DNA of 64,000 nt from Circinella umbellata. Taxonomy: Eukaryota; Mucoromycota; Mucoromycetes; Mucorales; Lichtheimiaceae. This document shows, piece by piece, positions 3,746-32,504 of this stretch. Every line of letters starts with the position of its first letter. The stretch's first letter is position 1. The translations under genes were made by a program, and so were the position numbers. Location of the stretch: positions 228,863-292,862 of the forward strand of contig JAIWNF010000055.1 of assembly GCA_025093555.1 (NCBI GenBank), written 5' to 3'. A model generated the notes under the pieces. It had not been told where the DNA came from. It made no database searches and worked only from the letters and a program-made list of their open reading frames with translations.

Positions 3746-6700
3746 CGGTGCATTCTGTCTTAAACCGTCAAAATAATTTGAATCCCGACATAAAAACTTG
3801 ATCACTATGAAATATTTTTGACATTGCGTAATCAATATTCTGGCACATGGAACGTGTTTATTTTTGTATTCTAAATCTATCCCTAGTTTTCTTTTTTTTA
3901 GAAACTTATTTTTCATCGAGTTCATAGCCTTCAAAGTTTTGGCGGAATGTGAAAATTTACTAAGTGAAGCTAAGATTTTGACATAGGGATTATAAGGGAG
4001 ATCAGAGAGGAAAAGCAGTGTGTAACAGTACATAGCTGGTGGGTAATACATTACCCGCCAGTGACTATTTGTCAGCAAATAAATATATAATCCATCCACT
4101 TAAAATTAATCAGTAAAACATTACTTCTGTGAAGGATAAATAAAAAACCAATCAAATACAACTATATATTATTACTAATTATCCGTACAAAAAAGAAAGT
4201 TATCGAAAAATGGAGATTACATAGTAATAACTATTATAAATAGTTTCAGAGAATGATCTAGAAAGAATGATGTAATAATCAAATATAATAGGTCATCTTA
4301 TTCTATATTTATGAAAATAGTTTAGCCATAATGAGATCAAATAAAATAAGCAAAGATATAAAAGAGTGATGATTTTATTTCAAAAATAAAGATTCTCAAC
4401 TACTTTATTTATAACAGTTTTACATTCTTATTTTACTTTATTATTATTTATTATTACTATGGGTCCTTTGACTAAACAACAAAAACGTGTTCGAGAACAA
4501 TTGAAGAATTCAACAAATGGGCGTTTTACAAAACTTGCCTGTACAGAGGAAGATAATGTAACCAATGTCACCAATAATTCAGAAATTTCAGTAGAGGACG
4601 ATTTTGAAATTCTTGCAGGATTAGAAGTAGAGGAAGCACCCGAAGTAGAAGAAGTACTAGAGGAAGATTCAAAACCTTCCTTCCCTATTAAATGGAAAGA
4701 GAGTGAAGCCACATCTTCTCGTGGAAAATATTGGGGTACTAGTAGAACTCTCAAATATTACTATGATAAACAGGCATTAAAGAAAAAGAAGGGTAGTCAC
4801 GAAATTACCGATTTCTTCAAAAAAGCAGTTGATACTACAGATGGTGATGATGATAATGATGATAATCATGAAATGGTTGAAAGCTGTCCTTCCTTAATGT
4901 CTATTCAAGAGGCTTATGATCAACTAAAACCTATTGTTGCACCATCTATGAACATCAAAAAAGACAATAAAAGAGGAATGATTGATTATGAACTTCGAAA
5001 ATATATTGGTGTCTATATTTATTTTGGTGAGCTGATTAAAAAAACTCCAATAATGACAGCTTCACAAATAGCAGCAAAAACAGCTTGGATTGTTCCATCA
5101 AACCACTATCGTGCTCGAGCCATTAGATCGTATGCTCAGGAATATTTACGTTATGGCAAAATATCTGTTCATCAGCAAGGAAAACATGTTAAACGAGCCT
5201 CTCTTTTAAGTAATGAAGATGTAAAAGAAGCAGCGCAAAAATGGATTATTAGTACAAAACTGGAAAAAAGAGGCATTCCAGAATTGCTAAAATATCTAAA
5301 TCACACTATTATTCCAAATATGTTTAGTCTTCCTGGCAATATTTCAGCTTCAGTACTTTGGAATTATATGGTTGAATGGGGATACAGCTACCGTGCCAAT
5401 AAGAAAGCTGTGTATTATGATGGACATGAACGTGCTGATGTGGTTCAGTATAGAAAAGAGTGGGCTTCCAAGATGGTCGAATATAATCATTTTATGGAAA
5501 AATATAATGAAGATGATGTTACTAAGGTGACTCTACCAGACTTACCAGAAGGTCAAAAACAAATCATTATGGTTACCCAGGATGAGAGCACCTTTTACAG
5601 TAATGAATCACCAACTAATTTGTGGCTTCTTAAAAATGAAAATCCAATTCGTAACAAGTCTCCTGGTGGTTCAATTATGGTCAGTGAGTTCCAGTGTCCT
5701 TGCCATGGTACTATGCGCATCAAGAACTGGAAATCACGAAAGTTCTTTTTTGCAGGCACCAATCGTGATGGGTACTGGACATGGAAAGATATGCATCAAC
5801 AAATAAAGGATGATGTTATACCATTATTTGAAAAACTTCATCCAGGATGCCAAGCTCTATTTATTCTTGATCAGTCATCCAACCATAACGCATATGCACC
5901 TAGTGCCAAACGTGCCACTTGTTTTAATTTGAAAGATACACAGTTAAGCTCTATCAATCAACGTGTAATCTTACCTGGATACTATATTGGTCCAGATGGT
6001 AAAAAGAAAATCTAAAATTTTTATAATTTGGAAATCAAGAATGAGGGCAAGAAGAATGAACAGCGTACTTGGTTTCGAAAAGGACTTGAAACAATATTGA
6101 CGGAGCGTGGTCTTGGTAAATGGGACGAGTATAAAGCAGAAGGGAAATACTGGAAAGCAATATGTGGTAATAAGGAGGCTAATTTGGATCATACTTGCTG
6201 CCCATTTCATATGCTTGAAAATCAACCCGATTTTCTTGCACAAAAAACAGCATTAGAGGAACTTGTTGTGAAATCAGGTCACCTGTACACTCTTTATCCC
6301 AAGTATCACTGTGAAACTAATTGGATAGAGAGGTATTGGAGTGCTGCAAAAAGAATTGCAAGACGAGAATGTGATTATTCATTTAAGTCATTGCAAGAAA
6401 ACCTTGATGGTTTTCTTGATCAAGTATCTCCTCCAGATGCTACACCTATTGAAATTCGAAGATACTACAATCGTTGTTGGCGTTATATCTATGCATATAA
6501 TGATATGAAGGATGGAAATGAAGCATTTAAAGTGGTCGAAAAGTTCACATCAAAAAGGTTCCTCTCTCACCGTAAACCAGGTGTTCACAACTAACATGCT
6601 TTTTTTTTTCATTTTTTCCCTTTTTTTTATATGTATCTTCTTATTATCCTCTGATATTTTTTTTCTCTAAATCTTTTTTTTTTCCTTTTTTTTTCTTTAT

Positions 6701-6902
6701 ACATTATATATATATATATATATATTCTTTTCCATTTCCTTGAAATTTTTCAATAAAACAATAAAACTAGGTCATACTTTTTGACCATTATTATATGTTA
6801 CATATAGGACTTGATACCCTTAACCATGGATGTAATATTAACCGACGGGACTTAAAATATTTTTAATTTTTGACAAATGACGGTTTAAGTCAGAATGCAC
6901 CG
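3746..6902 (+). mobile_element. IS630/Tc1-like transposon 1 with TA duplication
   Basis: The left end reads CGGTGCATTCTGTCTTAAAC and the right end, inverted, CGGTGCATTCTGACTTAAAC, giving imperfect inverted repeats of about 25 bp. Both are flanked by TA (3744-3745 and 6903-6904). When the element is removed the Helitron 1 frame rejoins as YHLRLL/LYHVPRATSF, proving the borders. It carries one transposase gene on the plus strand. Between the gene and the right end lie long pyrimidine runs and a (TA)n stretch at 6703-6725. The 5' non-coding region (about 4110-4450) recurs as a detached fragment at 31180-31520. Confidence 0.92.
4459..6594 (+). pseudogene. IS630/Tc1-like DDE transposase with one nonsense codon
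   Basis: The ATG at 4459 opens a frame of 712 codons broken only by TAA at 6013-6015, where the related copy and the following sequence suggest a glutamine codon. The N-terminal 170 residues are acidic, then come helix-turn-helix-like segments (QQGKHVKRASLLSNEDV). Catalytic motifs are MVTQDEST (first D), FILDQSSNHNAY (second D) and NWIERYWS (E), matching the large fungal IS630-related DDE family. MVSEFQCPCHGTMRI is a conserved block between them. It would cut the TIRs and insert at TA. With a single stop it is either recently dead or depends on read-through. Confidence 0.9.
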
Positions 6903-7236
6903 TAGTAATCTGAGATGGTATTTTTCTACTTGACTCGGAGAAACAGCATACATACATCCAATAGTAGCACCATGTCCTCATTCATGAATTTTCCAACGAC
7001 GATCAGATTTTACAAAAACATAGTTCTCAGGGAAGTCAGGATACAATACCTGGCGGCCATCCTCATTTTTAATATTGTAATTGAACCAAGCTGTTAAACT
7101 CGTCTCATGTGCACGATCAGCAATAGTCGTCGGGTCATCATCTTCATTGAAATACACCAGTTGTTCATCTTCAAGGTGTATAGCCAAGTGCTGTTGGTTT
7201 GGAAATTCCTTATGTAAAGAGAATGAGAAGAGACGC
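6903..7236 (-). pseudogene. Helitron 1 linker between Rep and helicase domains
   Basis: The minus strand encodes RLFSFSLHKEFPNQQHLAIHL, DEQLVYFNEDDDP and GATIGCMYAVSPSQVEKYHL, all characteristic of the conserved Helitron region between the HUH domain and the helicase. On one side (7237) the CACTA element interrupts the tryptophan-arginine of GCWRLF, and on the other (6902) the IS630-like element interrupts YHLRLL. A TAG breaks the frame just after WKIHE. This short piece fixes the order and borders of the insertions around it. Confidence 0.85.
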
Positions 7237-7460
7237 CACCATGGGAAATTTTCGCGAGATTCGCGAGGTTCGCGAGGTTCGCGGTATAGGATTATAACTC
7301 AGTGCAGGCAGGTTCTTAATTTAGATATTTGTACTCTCGAATGTAACCATATGAAGTTTTAGTCTATTTATATCTCAGTCACTCCTTTAACCAATAATAC
7401 AGTCCAAATCAATATAAAGAATAATAGTATATTTTTCAAAAAAAAAAGGTTTCATTTCAT

Positions 7461-8929
7461 TTACCGATGATTTGTTGGAACAACGGCATTTGTTTTACTT
7501 CTCTGCCATTTTGAAGAAGGTATGGAGGAGGACGGAAAAGAGGAAAGACCAAAGTTGCCTTGTGGTCGCTTAGGATACTGGTTATCCTGCATAAGAGTAA
7601 CCGGATCTGACGCGGAAGAAGTAGAAGAGGAGGAAGGAACGGAGAACGAAGGGAGGTGGTGGTTTTGGATGGTGGTGGTTGTTGTTGTTGTTGAAGAAGT
7701 TGCAGCAGCAGACAAACTATATTTATATGAAGATTATGATCAGAATTTATGATCAGAATTCATAGAATAAAATGAGTACTTTAAATTGTTATTTTGCTTA
7801 CCTGGCGTTTGCTGCTATGCTATTGTCATCTTCGTCTTCAAATAACGTCCTAATATTAAATATAAAAGAAAATATTATTATTAATACAGTTTATTTATTG
7901 ACCATGTACATAACTTACGAAGATATAACGGCGGACAATCCACCCTCGCTTGCCGTATCCATGTAACTTCTATAATATTAAGAAAGAAAAACGTGTGAGA
8001 ACACACATATATATACATTATTTGATGTATTGCCCATTAGTTAATGAAACATACCCCGAATACATGGATGCCGTGCGAACAAGAGCTTGTTTTTTATCTC
8101 TATAATAAATGTAAATCGTCAATACTTTTTTAATCTATATTTATATTTATATATATGTAAATCCCAATACATACCTTTGAGAAGTACTAATGTGCTTCTC
8201 AAAAAGATAATACACCAAGTAGAGAGACACCCAATTTTTCTCACACAAATCAATTGGGATGTCATCTAAGTGGTGCTTCAAATAGATCGAGACATCTATG
8301 GCCAACTTGTCTCTAGCCATTTCGGTGAGCCCACGGAAAGTTTTGATTGTTTTATTGGGACGGGCATCCCAAACGGCTACAAGTCGTTTATGGAATTTAT
8401 CCACAATCTTGACTATGGTGTCCATCATTGCAACTTCATTGGGGCCAGTAAGCTGCAAGACCTCACCGATGAAGTGTTTTCTAACGAGGCCCTGCGTGAT
8501 CTTACTAGCATCCAGCTTGCGAATCACGTCCCCCGCAGGAATACGGTATTCCGCCATTCGTTTGTACGGCTGGATGTCCCGAGAAACATCCAACAAGGGA
8601 TCATCGTCCACGAGATGGTGTTGCTGTTGCTGCTGCTGCTGTTGTCCATGGGCTGGGTTTTGCACGGACAGTGCTTCTTTAATCAGAGCGACGGATGACT
8701 CAAGGTTAGTCACCTTCTCGTCAACCTTGGCTATCCAGCTGCGCACGTCTTGCATAAGGACATACCAATCGGGTGGAGGAGGAGGATGGGCGTATTGTAG
8801 ATACACCGATTGGTAATATGCTTGGTGTTGCTGGAGAGGTTGTTGTTGTTGTGTGTTCATTTCGAAATGCGAAGTAATTGAAACAGATGAAACAAAAGAA
8901 TTTTTTTTTAATTCAGGTCGCTTCGTCAT
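7461..8929 (-). CDS. CACTA accessory protein, five exons, polyglutamine
   Basis: Exons are 8929-8175, 8099-8055, 7969-7919, 7849-7802 and 7716-7461. All four introns have GTATGT or GTAAG donors and TAG acceptors, and the phases agree throughout with no stop, giving 384 residues. The protein has Q-rich runs (residues about 25-40 and 100-110), a proline stretch, a short helical segment, a central region without recognised motifs (about 120-250), and a C-terminal tail rich in S and T. I recognise no catalytic domain. By position it may play the role of the DNA-binding TnpA-type partner of CACTA elements, but that is inference from context only. It is intact although the neighbouring transposase is not. 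Confidence 0.75.
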
Positions 8930-22600: not shown

Positions 22601-23957
22601 AGTGCAACTCTGTTTCTACTTCTTCGTACATCTACTGTTCTGCCATCATTACGTCGTCTATATATTGGATAACCACCTACTTCAGCTTCGGTGGTTTCCT
22701 GGGCAAATGCTTTGGATAATGCTTGGAACAGCGGCCGTTTACCATGCAAGGTGAGTCGGGATACGCCGGACCGCATGGCCCATGCATCATATTTCTAGTA
22801 ACAGTGGGATATGCAGCAGGGTGACGATCAGGATCAGGTATTTCGGCTGAGACGATGTTATCATAATCGCTGGGACCTGAGGGTTTGCAATCAGAGGATA
22901 AAATCAAAAGAGTATGACAATGCGGAAGTCCCCATTTCTGATGCTCTACAACACTGATATGTGTCACACATGTTCCAAGTACATGTTTCTTAGTTAAGTC
23001 ATCCATCAATGAATTAAGCTACATAGAAAACAAAAAGTCAATATCAACGTCATCAAATACTTGTTATATATAATTATAAAGAGCTTGAAAATAATTATAT
23101 CAATGAATGACTCATTCTCAACAAAATAACGAAGAAGTATAGAAAAGGCTCAAAGATATATGTTCAGGAAGCTTTCTAAGAGAAGTAAACTTTTAAATAA
23201 ACGAATAAAAATCATCATACCTTCATATGGAAAACTCTTCCAGTTAAAGTGGGACAATCAACAGCTCTCTGGCCAGGTTTTAATTTGCGGGTAATTTCAA
23301 CCCAGGAGGGGTTGCAGGTAAAGGTGATAAACAGGTCTGGTTTCGAAAAGCATCATACAATTGCCATAGCATCTTAGTATCTGCTATTCATGTCTCTGGG
23401 ACCACCAATAAATGTGGAAGGAAGAAGAACAGACCTTCCAACATTTCGAGCAATTTCACCATCAATAGCTTCAACCAAGCCGTCCAACATTTCAGCACGA
23501 AGTGATGTTTGATTTCTACGGATGTATTCAAGATGATCCTGTTCCACTTTAACCCATATATCAACAACAAATTGGTGAAATAAACGCTGGTAGTATACAA
23601 TATAGTAGTTATCACGATCGTGGAGTAAATATGCATAATAGCGCATATGTGGTGTATAACCATCATCATCATCATCATCATCATCATCATTATTAAAAAC
23701 ATTTGCTAATCATAAAACAAATTGTAAGATATACATTAGCTTTACGTATAGTATATATATATAAATATAAGAATTGGTTCTTACATATATTATTTGGATG
23801 ATTATTGGGCAATGGTGCAACCCACCCTTGTTCGCCACGTGGAAATATAAGCACATAATGAGTAGGATTATATAAAGGATGAAACTCATTGATACGCATT
23901 AATCCACCACCACGACGTGTTATAACTACATCACAATATGCTCCAACAGAACCATGG
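19700..23957 (-). pseudogene. Helitron 2 Rep (HUH) and PIF1-like helicase
   Basis: From right to left: GLMRINEFHPLYNPTHYVLI (23899), VLLPSTFIGGPRDMNSRY (23450-23374), the HUH motif HQKWGLPHCHTLLIL (about 22940-22890), MMHGPCGPAYPDSPC, NVRAVKYLYKYVFKGHDRAL (Y-motif region, about 22530), YNGREYELFQEAAAARLLLE (21850), the helicase segments IVWDEVPMIHRHAVEAVNRT and FGNKVIVFGGDFRQTLPVV (21199-20702), and the C-terminal SINKSQGQTL with the AFSR-type end (about 19860-19790). A probable intron separates 20702 from 20668. Walker A at about 21285 is out of frame with its neighbours. The product would nick, unwind and copy the element. Confidence 0.85.
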
Positions 23958-24145
23958 GAGGCCTGCTATTAGTGGTCTAGCCATTTAGGATCTACTAGCT
24001 ATCATGTGGCCACTAAAATTTTTACATTTAAATTAAAAATAAATAAAAATTGAATTTTTTTATTTATATTGGTAGCCTCCCAAGAGAAAAAAAAGAGCCT
24101 GTATTTAAAATATATAATATTATTAACACAAACAAACAAAACACA

Positions 24146-25624
24146 ATGCAATACACTGAACAACTTGACACTGAAGTTAAAAATTTAGTTGGTACTAAAT
24201 GGGGTTTTCTAGGAAAACCATGGCCTGAAATCCATCATAGATTTAATCATCGAACAGTTATAAAGGATATGAAGGGTAATACAATTGATGAAATTAAGGA
24301 AGTATTACTTAATAGGTTTGGATTTATACCTGTGTTTTATTTCCTTACTGTTTTGTATGGAAATGTTGAATATCCAGGACCATATCGAGAAATAGAAAAG
24401 GGACTTGTATTATTATACCATATAGTATCAGGTGAATCAGGAAAGGATATGCACACAGTGATGCCATATGCAACATTTTATGATTTATACAAGAGGTTTT
24501 GGATTACCAATTATAGTGAGTTGAATAAAAAGGTAAAACAGGACCTAAATGGTATGTTCTCATCACCACGTATACGCATTCTTGCATCATTAATAAATAA
24601 TCCAGATGGTTTAAAAAACGTCACGCTATTTATTGATGGACATGATAGTAAAATAAAGTATTATAAACCAAGTGAACCACATTCACTACTATACTCATAT
24701 AAATTGAAAGGACCAGCAGTTCGTACACAAGTTATACAGGATATGAATGAAATAATTACACATGTTTCTGTATCTGAAAAGTGCGCAATTGGGAATGATG
24801 GTACAATGTTCATACAAATGAAGTTATATAAGAAAATTAGCGAGACAGATTGTTTAGGTATGGATGGTGGTTATAACTTGTTCATACAAAAGTTTAAAGA
24901 TAATGCAACAGATGCTGGTTATGGTTTTTATGACCGAAATTTCTTATATCCTATAAGAAAAGAACCCGGACAAAAATTAACACTAAATGAGACACACTTC
25001 AATAATAAGTTTGGGTCATTCCGTTCATCAATTGAAGCACAATTCTCTATGCTTGGCTCTAAGTTTGAACGATTTAATAACAATCGTGCAGCATTACAAA
25101 TATCTGATATAAAATACTATAATATTCAGTTTCGCGTTGCATGCATTCTTACTAACATCTGGCGATTTGTAGATAAGTATGATATAGAGGTACAGCCACA
25201 CCATAAGTTATGGTATGGAAAAGGTTTCGAATTTCCAAGTAAGAAAAACAAACTCGACTTGGTATTTTCAAATGAGCAAAAGGTAAATACTGAGTATAAC
25301 GAAATGGTTGAAATGCAACAGAAGTTTTTACAGCTTAATATGAATCAGTCGATAGATATGGTTATTGATAGTGAGGAAGATGCTGATGACAATTTATCAA
25401 AACGAAGAAGAAAGGCCACAAGAGGAGGACAAAGAAATAGACAGTATGATAACTCATATGAAATTGAGATAATTGTAGGGCATGTATATACTAACAACAA
25501 ATATATATTTGAGGTTAAGTGGGTTGGATACGATGCAATGGATAATAGCTGGTTAACAATTAATAAGTTTAATGATCGGGAAATGTTACATGAATATATG
25601 GCCACACATGATATTCAGCTCTAA
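24146..25624 (+). CDS. DDE transposase with C-terminal chromodomain
   Basis: The first ATG in the frame is at 24146, 7 bp downstream of an ACAAACAAAC stretch, giving 492 residues; non-ATG extension upstream is possible but unlikely. Acidic catalytic candidates are D in TLFIDGHDSK (about residue 170), D in CLGMDGGYNLF (about 240) and E in RSSIEAQFSMLGSKFERF (about 300), spacing and context like the DDE_Tnp_4/IS5-related group. A basic segment (KRRRKATRGG, about 425) precedes a chromodomain (about 440-490) with IVGHVYTNNKYIFEVKWVGY and a following W. Chromodomains bind methylated histone tails and could steer insertion into heterochromatin. The frame is intact. The next gene is convergent. Confidence 0.85.
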   Translation: MQYTEQLDTEVKNLVGTKWGFLGKPWPEIHHRFNHRTVIKDMKGNTIDEIKEVLLNRFGFIPVFYFLTVLYGNVEYPGPYREIEKGLVLLYHIVSGESGKDMHTVMPYATFYDLYKRFWITNYSELNKKVKQDLNGMFSSPRIRILASLINNPDGLKNVTLFIDGHDSKIKYYKPSEPHSLLYSYKLKGPAVRTQVIQDMNEIITHVSVSEKCAIGNDGTMFIQMKLYKKISETDCLGMDGGYNLFIQKFKDNATDAGYGFYDRNFLYPIRKEPGQKLTLNETHFNNKFGSFRSSIEAQFSMLGSKFERFNNNRAALQISDIKYYNIQFRVACILTNIWRFVDKYDIEVQPHHKLWYGKGFEFPSKKNKLDLVFSNEQKVNTEYNEMVEMQQKFLQLNMNQSIDMVIDSEEDADDNLSKRRRKATRGGQRNRQYDNSYEIEIIVGHVYTNNKYIFEVKWVGYDAMDNSWLTINKFNDREMLHEYMATHDIQL

Positions 25625-25633
25625 ATTATTTTC

Positions 25634-26902
25634 TTACTTATTTTGCTTATTGAAAAACCTCATATTAAAACCAATTGTATCAACCTTTTGTTTATTAGCC
25701 CAACTATATTCATGCTTTACATATTCATTAGTTATACTTATGCTTGGTTTTGTATCCACTATTTCTTTTTTTATCTCAGACTCTTTTGTTACATCTTTAT
25801 CACCTATTATAACCTGTTTGATAGCCTTTTGCCTTTTAAAATAGTCTTTAGGCTGTATTTCTTCTATGATTTGCTTATTCTTTCGTTTATTTTTATTACG
25901 TCTTCTTTTCTTTTTATGCTTTGGTATATTACTTTGTATGCTACAGTCACTGCTTTGTTCTGATTCAGATGTACTGACATCTATATATTTATGTTTCTCT
26001 GTATCCTCTGGTGGATTGTCCCAATTTATGTCTTCAGTTATTAGCTCCTCACACTTTGTTTCATTTAGTACATCTTCCCAGTTTCTACAATCTGTTGGTG
26101 CTGGTGACTTCACAGTTGACCATCCTCTATTAGTTTGCTTCGGCGGGTCATATTGTTTACTGTCCTGTATATTATGATTATTATACTTTTCCTCTTGTTT
26201 TTTCATATATTCTTCTGAATCAGCTAGTTCCTGAAGCTCTTCTGCTATTTTATCCATTGGTGTATATTTTTTCACACCATCTTGACCACTATTCTTAGCA
26301 TATCGTATAAATGTATGCTGATCTTGGTATTCATTTTCATATTCATTTTTAAATAGATCCTCATACATATCCATGTTTTCATAATATATAAATTTCTCTT
26401 CATAATCCTTTACATTCATTGTATATGGATTCCATATAATATGTCCTTTACGATTTTTATCAACATATATTATATATAAACGGTTTAAAGTTGGTTCTAG
26501 TTCATATATTGATTTATTCTTATATAACATATGAGGCATATAATTACTATTCAATATTATTGGCATATTCTTTTTTTTAGTAATTGACTTAGTAAATTTA
26601 CCATTTAGTTTTAATCGTGTTCCTTCTAACATTTGGTTTAGAAATGTTAGTTTGAAATCAGAACCTGTTTCTTCATTATACATGAAGTCATAATCATCAT
26701 CCTTATAATCTGACCAATCATTTTCTTTATTCATCAGATATGCTCGATGACCACCTTGTTCTATCAAATCTATGTTATATGTCTTTCCAACATTAGATGG
26801 ACCTACTATCCAGTATTGTGGTATCTTATTTTTCCCACCAAACATCGTTTCAATACCAAACATGGACCACATATATAATTCATTTCCAGGATTATTTTCC
26901 AT
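25634..26902 (-). CDS. Superfamily 3 helicase half of a CRESS-type Rep
   Basis: The 422-residue frame has Walker A GPSNVGKT near its N-terminus, an acidic Walker B-like YDFMYNEE, and a motif C-like IILNSNYMPH, in the order and spacing of viral superfamily 3 helicases. It continues with a long hydrophilic tail rich in K, E and N that includes KKKRRRNKNKRKNKQ, a probable nuclear localisation signal. It lies in the same frame as the HUH domain upstream and is separated from it by one TAG codon (26956-26954) and 17 codons, so both are most likely halves of one protein. Such helicases assemble as hexamers that unwind DNA during rolling-circle replication. The tail is much longer than in small viral Reps. 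Confidence 0.85.
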   Translation of the reverse strand: MENNPGNELYMWSMFGIETMFGGKNKIPQYWIVGPSNVGKTYNIDLIEQGGHRAYLMNKENDWSDYKDDDYDFMYNEETGSDFKLTFLNQMLEGTRLKLNGKFTKSITKKKNMPIILNSNYMPHMLYKNKSIYELEPTLNRLYIIYVDKNRKGHIIWNPYTMNVKDYEEKFIYYENMDMYEDLFKNEYENEYQDQHTFIRYAKNSGQDGVKKYTPMDKIAEELQELADSEEYMKKQEEKYNNHNIQDSKQYDPPKQTNRGWSTVKSPAPTDCRNWEDVLNETKCEELITEDINWDNPPEDTEKHKYIDVSTSESEQSSDCSIQSNIPKHKKKRRRNKNKRKNKQIIEEIQPKDYFKRQKAIKQVIIGDKDVTKESEIKKEIVDTKPSISITNEYVKHEYSWANKQKVDTIGFNMRFFNKQNK

Positions 26903-26953
26903 TTGGGTATCATGGAAGTAGCTATTTAGATTTGATTTTACTATGTCATATTT

Positions 26954-27733
26954 CTATAATAATTCTGGATACATCTGTGTTGCTTTAGTCATTGTTATTG
27001 TTTTATTTATTAAATTATAACCAAGAAGTTGTTGGTGCATTTTTCTGGTCTTAATTTCATAATTTGGGTCCATGTTATAAGCAATATAATCCTTTCCTTT
27101 CATACAATAACTAATTGACTTTTGTGGGTTACCACCTGGTTTAATGTTTGGAGTAACACCATCGATAGTAAAAAATTTACGCGCTGTTTTAGTATCAAAT
27201 CGTTCATCTAATTGTATCCATATATGCACATGTTTTTCACCAGTTTCTGGTGCAATTTCATCACATGCAATTGCCTTTTCAATTCGGTAACCAATACGTT
27301 CATGCTTTGTAAACCATTCCATTACCTGTTCTTTCGTTAAATGGAAATCCTTACAAATATATGTGAATAGTCCCTTAGTATTTTGAAACCGGAATTCTTT
27401 ATCACCCTGTGAGGTAGCCGCACTGGAAGTGTTACCATCTAACATTGCATCGGAAAAATGAGGATTTGAGGATTTGAGGAATCTCACAAATGATCGAATT
27501 CTTCCAATGATGTTATTGCGTGATGCATCCTTCGTTGTCTTATCTACTTTAGCCTTCTTAAGGTCCTTTTCAAGTTCTGACCTTAATTGTGTAACAAGAA
27601 GATCAGACTCAATATGCTGATGATTATCAGCAAGATGTTTTGCTCTTTCAATCAAGAGCGTCAATGTTATTCCTAAAATAGGAACAAATTCAGCCATAAT
27701 GGTAATAAATGTGAGCAAATTGATTTGGTCCAT
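26954..27733 (-). CDS. HUH endonuclease half of a CRESS-type Rep
   Basis: The ATG at 27733 gives 259 residues. Rolling-circle motif I is probably GLFTYICKDFH, motif II is KHVHIWIQLDE (the two-His metal site) and motif III is SISYCMKGKDY (catalytic Tyr, then Lys). FFTIDGVTPNIKPGGNPQ between II and III resembles the geminivirus-type GRS region. The first 30 residues are hydrophobic (FITIMAEFVPILGITLTLLI), followed by a coiled-coil-like charged segment, neither of which is usual in viral Reps. The enzyme should nick a single-stranded origin and stay linked by tyrosine. A TAG ends it just before the helicase frame, which raises the options of nonsense mutation, read-through or a small intron. Confidence 0.88.
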   Translation of the reverse strand: MDQINLLTFITIMAEFVPILGITLTLLIERAKHLADNHQHIESDLLVTQLRSELEKDLKKAKVDKTTKDASRNNIIGRIRSFVRFLKSSNPHFSDAMLDGNTSSAATSQGDKEFRFQNTKGLFTYICKDFHLTKEQVMEWFTKHERIGYRIEKAIACDEIAPETGEKHVHIWIQLDERFDTKTARKFFTIDGVTPNIKPGGNPQKSISYCMKGKDYIAYNMDPNYEIKTRKMHQQLLGYNLINKTITMTKATQMYPELL

Positions 27734-27990
27734 ATTGTGTTGATAGTGTTGTGTATGTGTAGTATTAAAAAATATAACAAATAAATTTGACTTTATATTT
27801 TGAGAAGTTATTTTATATAATAAAATAAAATTCAATTTTTATTTTCAAAATTTTTAAAAGTATGCATGCCAAGACATTCATACATAAATTAATTTAATAA
27901 AAATTAATTTGGCTATACCGTTTTGCCTTGGCTATCCATCCGACTAGTGCCAATAGATCAGAGCATAATCACTATAACCTCGACTGGTCC

Positions 27991-29188
27991 CCATGGTTTG
28001 GAAGAATCGCAGCAATTTCAGCAGTAGCTGGCGCTAAATATTGCCCATAATTCCCATGTAAAGGTGTCCGATCGGAGTGGATCACAATGGCAAAATTACT
28101 GTCAGGACTTTCTTGGATACGATCAGCTGCCCTTTGATATACTTGGGATAAAGGATTATCATGATGAATCATTGTCTGTAAAGAACGCAAAGTTTGAGGA
28201 TCCAATCTGTCAAAAAGACCATTTCTCAATTGGATCTATGATTCAGTATCATGAATGTAAAACTGCGCAAATCCAGGTGCTACGTTCTCTGCTGGTTGGA
28301 TTGCCCATGCAATAGTATGACTAATTATACCATTCACTCGAAAAGTATATACACCTTCTCTTTTATTTGCCAATTGAGAATCATACTAACACAAAGAACA
28401 ATTAAAATTTACAACAATTATATACTTGTTAAGTCCAATTAATTACAATTGATTATAATATTTTATACGATTATATACCTTGGCTACAATAGAGGAGAAA
28501 GCAAAAGCAGAATTGTAAAGACGTATTTTCTGTCGAAAATTTCTTGCAGTTGCATCTTGATCAATTAAGAGAGAGAAGTTCATTTGGAGGTGGAGGTGGC
28601 AAGTTAAAAGAAACCTTTCCTTTGTTGCAACAAAAAGTAAATTTAGGTTCAGCAATAGTGCCTGCACTTTTTTCTTTGATCCACATCTTTGCATTACACG
28701 ATGGGCAGATAACATTCATTTCTTTAAGATCTTGACGACCGTTGGGTAAAATATTGGATCGACGACTAATGTGAGGAACGTAGTGATCAGGGTGAACTCG
28801 AGCAACAAAAGGGGTATGTACTGTAAAAGTATCTATACGTGGTTGCTGTTGTGCAGCAGCGGGTCTGTATATACAACAATATTCATATTAAAAACCTTAA
28901 TTTAGACAGATATCAGAGAAAAATGTAGGTAACATACTGAGGTTGTAATGCTGTTGCTAATTGTTCGGCTGCTTGTTGAAAAGCTTCATCATGGGTACGT
29001 CAAGTTGGCACAACAGAATTTGGTATAATTGGTTGCTCAGGTACATGATCAACGTTAATGATAGCGCTCACTGCATCATCAAAAATCAGAGGGCCAGGAT
29101 TGGAAGTTCGGAGACTGTTTGGATTGGCTGGACAATCATGATGATTTGTTCTAGAATGAGTTGTGCTTCCACATGCATGACAGGTCAT
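27991..29188 (-). pseudogene. Helitron 2 N-terminal region
   Basis: The minus-strand ATG at 29188 starts a C-x2-C/H-x4-H-type finger (MTCHACGSTTHSRTNHHDC) and the segment THDEAFQQAAEQLATALQPQ follows. Further on are a second Cys pair region (28715-28600), WAIQPAENVAPGFAQFYIHD (about 28310-28250) and the conserved LDPQTLRSLQTMIHHDNPLS...FAIVIHSDRTPLHGNYGQYL block (28200-28060). The last codons before the Rep/DDE insertion are AAILPNHG. Stops occur at several points. Part of this region is probably split by introns, for example around 28380-28480 and 28860-28940. Confidence 0.8.
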
Positions 29189-30329: not shown

Positions 30330-30616
30330 TATTAATTTCCAGCAACCAATGTTTTTATATCGGAATAGCTGACAATTATCTTTAAAATACAGTGAGCAAA
30401 TAAAAAGCGAAAAAATAGGAATTCAAAGGCAGAGTATCTTACAAAAAAGGAAATTTTAAGGTTCAACTATATTAGTATGCTAGTTTTTGGATACATGCCA
30501 AGACATCTATACATAAATTAATTTAATAAAAATTAATTTGGCTACCCTATTTTATTACGGCTATCTAACCCACTTGTTCCAACAGGCTATAGTGTAGTTA
30601 CTATAGCCTTGACTGG

Positions 30617-31800
30617 TCTCCATCTATACCTATACAATCTGCTTCACTTATTCTTTTATACAACTTCATTTGTAAGAACATAGTACCATCATTACCAATT
30701 GCATACTTTTCAGATATAGAAACATGTGTAATCATTTCTTTCATATCCTGTATAACCTGTGTACATACAGCTGGTCCTTTCAATTTATATAAATATAACT
30801 GTGAATGTAATTTACTTGGTTTATAATGCTATATTTTACTATCATGTCCATCAATAAATAGTGTAACATTTTTAAAACCATCTGGATTATTTACTATTGC
30901 TGATAGAATATGTATACATCGGAATGAAAACATATTATCTAAGTCATATCTCACTTTTTTATTTAATTTCTTATAATTGGTAATCAAAAACCATTTATAT
31001 AAGTCATAAAATGTCACATATGGCATCACATTATGCATATCTTTTCCTGATACACCTGATACCATATGGTACAGTAAGACAAGCCCCTTTTCTACTTCAC
31101 AATATGGTTATGGATGTGGTGAGCTACCATAATAATATATATATTCCATCCATTCATGAATAATTGGTCAAAGATCATTCTGTCAAGGATAAAAGATATA
31201 ACCAATTATACACTATTATTTACTTTGATTCGCTCTTATTATTAATCTGGATAAAAAAGGAACATCAAAGAAAGAATGAGATTAGCAACAAGTGTCACTA
31301 ACAATTTCAGAGAATGATCTAGAATTAATATTTATAATAGAATAAATATAATAGGTCCTCTCATCCATTCATATAATACATAGTTTAGCCATGATTGGAT
31401 AAAATAAGATAGTTACATAATTTAGAAAAGATATAAAAGAGTAGTTATTTTATTTCAGGAATAAACAGATTCTCAACTATATTTTACTTTAGTCCCATCT
31501 TTCTATTTTTTACTACTCGTATTTATCTCACTGAATATTCAATATTTCCATAGGAAACAGTAAGAAAGTAATATATAGGTATATATCCAAATCTATCAAA
31601 CAATAGTTTTTTCTATATCTGTAATAGTATCCCCTTTTATATCTTTTATAGACATTCTATGGTTGAATCAATGATGAATTTCAGGCCAAGACTTATCTAA
31701 AAATTCCTATTTATTATCAATTAAATTTTTAATTTCAGTATTAAGTTGTTCAGTATGCTGTATAGCTTTTATTTTAAATATTTTGTATATATATGAATCA
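30617..31800 (-). pseudogene. DDE transposase N-terminal half, degenerate
   Basis: The segment 31065-30841 encodes SGKDMHNVMPYVTFYDLYKW and VTLFIDGHDSKI, and 30783-30620 encodes GPAVCTQVIQDMKEMITHVS through CIGIDG, parallel to the intact copy at 24146-25624. It stops at the second catalytic acidic block. Upstream coding remnants (31540-31800) match the leader and first 70 codons with stops. Positions 31180-31520 are foreign, a piece of the IS630-like transposon 1 leader. The gene is non-functional. Confidence 0.8.
31180..31520 (+). repeat. Detached leader fragment of IS630-like transposon 1
   Basis: This stretch aligns by eye to 4110-4450, the non-coding region just upstream of the transposase at 4459. 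Shared words include TTTCAGAGAATGATCTAGAA, AAATATAATAGGTC, ATATAAAAGAGT and GATTCTCAACTA. No transposase codons follow. It may be a MITE derived from that family or a fragment; I did not find clear ends. Confidence 0.65.
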
Positions 31801-32504
31801 AACGCTCTTTTTTTTCTCTTGGGAGGTGTTGTATCCAACACATATTATTCATAAAGATAATTATTTGTCATTCTAATTATTAAAGTATAGCGTATCTTTA
31901 ATTATGCTTTGCTGACATTTCGTGTATTTCCCTATTTGGACCATGATTTATAAGAACACAGAAGTCCGTCTTCTATAATGATATAAGGTTACAGCTGCGT
32001 AGATATATCATATCTTCAACTAGGGTTCTTAGTAGACCGATCCGGATCAGATTGGCACCATTTCGAATCCGATCCGTTTTGAAACGGATCGGATTTTCAG
32101 AAATCCGGATTGTCCACGGATTAGAGAATTGCAATCCGAATCCGTTTCGTAAAAATCCAGATTGAATCCGTAATCCGTAATGCAAAAGAATCAATTAGAT
32201 GAAAATTTAGACTATATAGTAGATGTCGCAGTATTTTTTCATGAGAAAAGGTATTTTACAAGATTGTGTATAGTAGTCGTTTGAGATTGTTTTAAGAAAA
32301 GTAAAACATTGGTAACAGAGGTGCATTGTTTTTAGATGATTTTATTATTTTGGTTTGAAAAACATAATAGGAAATAAATAAGTTATAATAAAAAAAAAAA
32401 TTGTAGTAAAAAAAAAATTGTAGTAATAAAAAGTTATAATATGGGAAAAAAGAAGTTACAATGGAAAAGAAAGTTATAGTTGAAAAAAAATTATAGTGGG
32501 AAAG

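Follow-up and report, generated by a model that had tools for sequence, protein, structure and literature searches.

Background

Cut-and-paste transposons gain copies only indirectly. In PIF/Harbinger elements the target site duplication (TSD) follows the motif TWA, and a Myb-like protein has been tied experimentally to transposition. PIF/Harbinger, Pangu, Nuwa, ISL2EU and Spy are united in superfamily PHIS. The accessible text of a 2015 survey (PMC4482050) reports that most autonomous members combine a DDE transposase with a second, DNA-binding protein (Myb/SANT or YqaJ), whose role was then called unknown, and gives ANT, CWG and TNA as 3-bp TSD motifs of the other groups. The element described here lies in a 64,000-nt stretch of the fungus Circinella umbellata (assembly GCA_025093555.1, 50.78 Mb in 210 contigs; contig C162:228863-292862), hereafter called the window, to which coordinates refer. 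It pairs a PIF/Harbinger-like transposase with a Rep of the type found in circular Rep-encoding single-stranded (CRESS) DNA viruses.

Helitrons rely on a single protein, RepHel, whose helicase is of Pif1 type, and generate no TSD. They share with the Circinella element an HUH endonuclease within a eukaryotic transposon, whereas the latter displayed superfamily-3 type motifs and 3-bp TSDs. The succession of an HUH domain and superfamily-3 helicase motifs is found in CRESS-DNA viruses and in phytoplasma plasmids with geminivirus-like Reps; unlike the viruses, the element had no capsid gene, no recognisable origin, DDE-type insertion duplications and a Rep extended at both ends. Teratorn, a piggyBac-herpesvirus fusion of 180 kb with herpesvirus genes, likewise links a cut-and-paste transposon to a viral replication function, as far as the consulted part of its description goes (PMC10175614), whereas a single Rep gene is present here.

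Pairing of Rep and transposase in one transposon is already published as a kind. In the accessible part of Liu et al. (2011, PMC3198968), a geminivirus-like transposon of Tuber melanosporum is presented, repeated and recently amplified, with an interrupted Rep and two transposase open reading frames (ORFs), one interrupted and one truncated; its description is consensus-based and gives 37-bp terminal inverted repeats (TIRs) and no obvious TSD. Compared by description only, both are repeated, recently amplified fungal units combining a gemini-type Rep with a transposase. Unlike the Tuber element as described there, the Circinella element possesses a single DDE gene (open in four of five recent copies), a Rep open in two of five, at best weak TIRs rather than 37-bp ones, exact 3-bp TSDs, and selection on both genes. 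New in relation to that description are the exact insertion, the open genes and the evidence of selection on both; the evidence of function is better than in the Tuber case as described there. Among the titles and abstract openings screened, which did not extend to subscription papers and Repbase, nothing described this element or a PHIS transposon partnered by Rep.

One mobile unit with two convergent genes

Five copies with both convergent genes were present in the genome (in the window and on contigs C66, C75, C94 and C146), 99.3-100% identical to the window element over aligned parts and inserted between different flanks. They had the ends G-GAGGCC...GGTCC-CC in common. Each was bordered by its own 3-bp duplication (ATG, ATA, AAT, ACA and TAC; matching flanks in 5/5), while none of 20 mispairings of left and right flanks from different copies gave a match of three bases or more. 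The exact ends and 3-bp duplications strongly imply that insertion was performed by the DDE transposase. With a DDE_Tnp_4-type transposase bearing an intact triad, two ORFs, a length of about 4 kb and a 3-bp TSD, the element resembles PHIS elements as surveyed; it departs from them in its variable TSD sequence: TWA does not fit all five, and neither do the surveyed motifs ANT, CWG and TNA (PMC4482050, accessible text).

The initial annotation had bounded the unit by CCATGG duplications. This hexamer does occur at 23952-23957 and 27991-27996; as a 6-bp target duplication it was ruled out by the five-copy comparison, which placed the element at 23957-27992 and the true duplication at ATG. CCATGG is made up of ATG, the element's own first G or last CC, and adjoining bases. 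The annotated insertion into a Helitron gene was borne out: joining the window flanks without the element restored a single uninterrupted reading frame over the insertion site, and the adjoining ORFs matched Helitron_like_N and PIF1 (Pfam). Equally present were the convergent genes, with 9 bp between their stops (Rep, 25634-27733 on the minus strand; transposase in Table 1) and the motifs quoted for them. No capsid gene was found, the two genes filling the 4,036 bp and the remaining ORFs of at least 80 aa lying inside or across them.

Near-identical DDE copies occupied seven places, and Rep adjoined in all five that could be assessed, those on C130 and C15 reaching contig ends. DDE and Rep have thus moved jointly as one unit with exact ends, recently and repeatedly. 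Chance neighbourhood of the two genes was ruled out by the four further copies elsewhere with identical gene pair and ends. The pairing recurred in a decayed and diverged form on C68 (83-88% identity), which lacks the left end and carries an insertion within Rep, and the single mobile unit proposed initially was supported; transposases consistently devoid of a neighbouring Rep, or Reps with boundaries of their own, were not encountered. Further remnants comprised C3, where the left end is preserved along with the start of the DDE gene and Rep's helicase half; C167, close to a contig start, with part of Rep; and the Rep fragments of C175, C203 and C160, with no adjacent DDE among the matches listed. 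The genome-wide DDE listing, in which 87 of 235 candidates were scored, gives minimum numbers. On C150 and at window positions 30620-31826 there were DDE relics whose examined flanks contained no Rep. The window relic (30491-31826) is a related, inverted DDE copy abutted by the right end of another element, an arrangement which is probably a nested insertion.

The transposase and Rep proteins

The transposase is a DDE_Tnp_4 (PIF/Harbinger-like) protein with a C-terminal chromodomain. Its triad (D164, D240, E297) was invariant in six of six aligned family members, and the gene was open in the recent copies except that of C94, which contained a stop. Pfam Chromo was detected in the same proportion of members (6/6, E up to 0.1), the window copy scoring 22.3 bits, below the cut-off of 25.1. 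The AlphaFold model of the protein was confident in the chromodomain alone, and its top Foldseek match was the HP1 chromodomain 1kna (E 2.7e-3, TM 0.86 normalised to the target), nothing falling below 0.001. This domain distinguishes the element from the PHIS elements surveyed in PMC4482050, where the word chromodomain does not appear.

The HUH domain of Rep displayed motifs I-III and one tyrosine, as expected of CRESS-type Reps, with a sub-threshold Pfam score: it matched Gemini_AL1 at E 3.8e-4 and 20.9 bits (curated cut-off 24), and for the open Rep, too, a sub-threshold Gemini_AL1 match was all that Pfam gave. Profile searches upheld the annotated transposase above cut-off and left the annotated Rep below it. 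Rep chain 9pqf of the PDB matched at E 1.2e-7. All 11 plasmid records matched by Rep were phytoplasma plasmids (best E 4e-3); a single comparison with a phytoplasma plasmid Rep gave E 4e-9, and a profile comparison a probability of 94%. No Myb/SANT or YqaJ match was obtained with Pfam, in contrast to the second ORF of the PHIS elements described in the accessible survey text. Searches of PHROGs and NCBIfam gave no useful match, and scans of viral contigs no relative. All eight Gemini_AL1-like stretches in the genome (E up to 1) belonged to this Rep family, as did the one Viral_Rep stretch, and no other Rep family was found with these two profiles.

Helicase motifs follow in order 3' of the HUH domain in a constrained region, which was assigned from its motifs only. 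The initial annotation had placed both parts in one frame; the motifs were confirmed, but the frame of the window copy is not continuous, its HUH part being separated from the helicase part by a stop codon in frame (26954-26956). Compared with CRESS and plasmid Reps, the protein is extended by 112 aa at its N-terminus and ~260 aa at its C-terminus.

Selection and conserved residues

Divergence between subfamilies was measured as synonymous (dS) and nonsynonymous (dN) rates. Between the Reps of C66 and C68, the HUH domain displayed dS 0.94, dN 0.10 and dN/dS 0.11 (113 codons), and the helicase region dS 0.61 and dN/dS 0.07 (149 codons); the C-terminal extension had a ratio of 0.29, and the entire gene (690 codons) one of 0.21. 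The transposase gave dS 0.78 and dN/dS 0.14 between the window and C68 (479 codons). HUH ratios for C66-C167 (0.13) and C66-C175 (0.10) agreed with the C66-C68 value, and C66-C203 gave 0.25; the dN/dS of the C66-C3 linker looked misaligned and was not used. Across the two subfamilies, Rep and transposase have diverged to a comparable extent, each under purifying selection. Since Rep has been selected at the protein level, most strongly in its catalytic regions, it serves the element.

Among mapped copies covering the respective positions (C94 left out), HxH and the motif III tyrosine were each kept in eight of eight, and motif C retained its last asparagine in seven of seven. Rep residues 1-112 differed little between C66 and C68 (dS 0.07, ratio 0.45, versus dS 0.94 in the adjoining HUH domain), which is why the gene is probably a mosaic from recombination between subfamilies.

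Origin of the Rep slot

The DDE family was larger and more diverse than Rep, with at least 94 matching stretches against 19 and 15. Rep was found in one branch, while sister branches carried another small convergent gene, Z, in the same slot. Gene Z displays Cys/His motifs, has no Pfam family and is a frequent partner of the DDE family (L012 3067-3579, L007 and others). Z-bearing rows fell on both sides of a nine-row midpoint-rooted DDE tree, which leans towards Rep-bearing elements being nested inside Rep-free ones. Because the DDE family is wider and sister branches hold another gene in the slot, Rep looks like the newcomer. Judged from these sequences, Rep probably replaced an accessory gene, and the initial suggestion that a transposase had taken the place of a capsid was not supported. 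By eye, the element's GGGGACCAG right end looks similar to that of the Z family, GGGGACAAG; similarity between left and right ends of the element itself was weak, 16.6% of 2,000 shuffles scoring equally high.

Role of Rep

To the reading of a two-gene PHIS-type cut-and-paste transposon whose accessory slot holds a CRESS-type Rep that copies the element, we give about an even chance; replication is favoured to this extent because the nickase residues and most helicase residues were kept. The transposase would excise and insert the element, and its chromodomain may steer it to heterochromatin. The HUH tyrosine of Rep would nick element DNA and its helicase would unwind it, so that the element would be copied by Rep, either after excision (possibly as a circle) or while still integrated, and the transposase would then insert the copy. 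If so, copying ahead of insertion would turn cut-and-paste into a net copy gain. A working hybrid replicon-transposon, with a rolling-circle replicase recruited from a virus or plasmid and excised copies amplified by nick-and-unwind before being inserted, is held tentatively, at somewhat under an even chance.

Several observations weigh against replication. The helicase region had no Pfam match, the profile comparison aligned the HUH part alone, and AlphaFold produced no usable model of Rep (mean pLDDT 32.5). No TANTATTAC-like nonanucleotide was found within the element with the one pattern used, nor a G+C-rich hairpin among perfect stems of at least 8, and the 50.8-Mb assembly, which is a poor place for seeing circles, contained no junction joining the right end to the left (exact ends with 0-20 bases in the gap). 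Plain viral-style rolling circle is disfavoured, since both the viral origin motif and the end-to-end junction were lacking. Two of eight copies, C68 and C167, had an altered motif I (FTY); six of seven kept the Walker A lysine, which C68 has lost. Rep was in one frame in C66 and C146 only and broken in the other three recent copies (a stop in the window, a broken frame in C75, a stop and a 4-kb insertion in C94); it may therefore act in trans or be dispensable at times. HUH ratios among old copies alone ranged from 0.77 to 2.51 on small dS, and the helicase region of C66 versus C3 gave 2.08 on a dS of 0.012, as in dead copies; the evidence of selection is therefore confined to comparisons between the two subfamilies.

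Rep could instead be an accessory factor without replication, which binds DNA close to the ends, opens the ends by nicking or melting, or aids the transposase; in other PHIS elements a comparable part may fall to the product of the second ORF, be it Myb/SANT or, in ISL2EU, the YqaJ nuclease. Such an accessory role is a possibility of about one in three in our judgement, and it would accord with the sister branches, where Z occupies the same convergent slot on both sides of the DDE tree, and with the DNA-binding second protein of most autonomous PHIS elements in the accessible survey text (PMC4482050). The lack of a viral-type origin points the same way, as does TGGCTA (either strand), which occurred in the element only at 23978-23983, 27910-27915 and 27929-27934, all subterminal; this motif, chosen after looking, is a candidate binding site. 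Nevertheless, most helicase residues are conserved across subfamilies, as are the HUH histidines and the tyrosine of motif III, which is more than plain binding needs. Derivation from an endogenous CRESS-type virus or plasmid in which a DDE transposase supplanted the capsid gene would fit the ambisense layout and the resemblance of Rep to geminivirus and phytoplasma plasmid Reps; it is unlikely, as the DDE family extends beyond Rep and also occurs with other partners, and the element ends were also found on elements without Rep. Still less probable is a mere passenger, a viral gene landed by chance in a DDE transposon and carried along. According to the part of Liu et al. (2011, PMC3198968) available, fungal genomes contain scattered Rep-like genes, and the three broken recent copies suit such a history; dN/dS values of 0.07-0.11 in both catalytic regions across dS 0.6-0.9, near those of the DDE gene, do not.

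An element in which an accessory gene has probably been swapped for a replicase of recognisable chemistry makes it testable whether the accessory gene copies DNA or only aids the transposase. It also exemplifies, with selection on both genes, how a eukaryotic transposon can durably incorporate a replication gene of viral type.

Features and associated elements

Table 1. Features of the Circinella element in window coordinates
Feature	Position	Strand	Basis
Whole transposon, 4,036 bp	23957..27992	.	ends common to five copies with different flanks
Left 3-bp TSD, ATG	23954..23956	.	five-copy comparison
Right 3-bp TSD, ATG	27993..27995	.	five-copy comparison
Left end	23957..24140	+	full length at 8 genome places; 15 matching stretches in total
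Right end	27800..27992	+	28 matching stretches in genome; also terminates 1.0-1.25-kb T elements
DDE transposase, 492 aa, open	24146..25624	+	DDE_Tnp_4, E 7.4e-10, 39.1 bits (cut-off 24.8)
C-terminal chromodomain	25457..25597	+	Pfam Chromo and structure comparison
Rep C-terminal piece: superfamily-3 helicase motifs and long extension	25634..26902	-	sequence reading; no Pfam match
Helicase-like region, residues 291-440: GPSNVGKT, YDFMYNEE, IILNSN	26414..26863	-	motifs in sequence; dN/dS 0.07 between subfamilies
Rep N-terminal piece to in-frame stop	26954..27733	-	sequence reading
HUH endonuclease domain, residues 113-225; H168, H170, Y209, K212	27059..27397	-	profile, PDB and plasmid-Rep matches

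A 21-nt inverted repeat (95%) at 24041-24061 and 27824-27844, close to both ends and upstream of both genes, is a possible shared promoter.

The DDE family was also present on two contigs (L081, L082) of metagenome-assembled genomes labelled Bacilli (isolate Lapin-032, 26% G+C), where the complete copy has the chromodomain region; these are probably misbinned eukaryotic DNA. No significant Rep match was found on them, one ending 32 bases past the transposase frame and the other mid-gene, and they are uninformative on the pairing because both end at or just after the transposase gene.

Elements of 1.0-1.25 kb with similar ends and 3-bp TSDs (L035, L036, L037 and L039, on C4, C166, C161 and C46) gave no transposase match. 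Their gene T, of ~300 aa and open in C4, has a peptide in common with the N-terminal part of Rep, and they look like non-autonomous partners which still encode a protein.

The ~4-kb insert in the Rep of C94 (~4900-8924; L045, L046) has perfect inverted ends of at least 30 bp and is flanked by the 9-bp duplication AGAAGAATA; from these two traits we take it to be Mutator-like.

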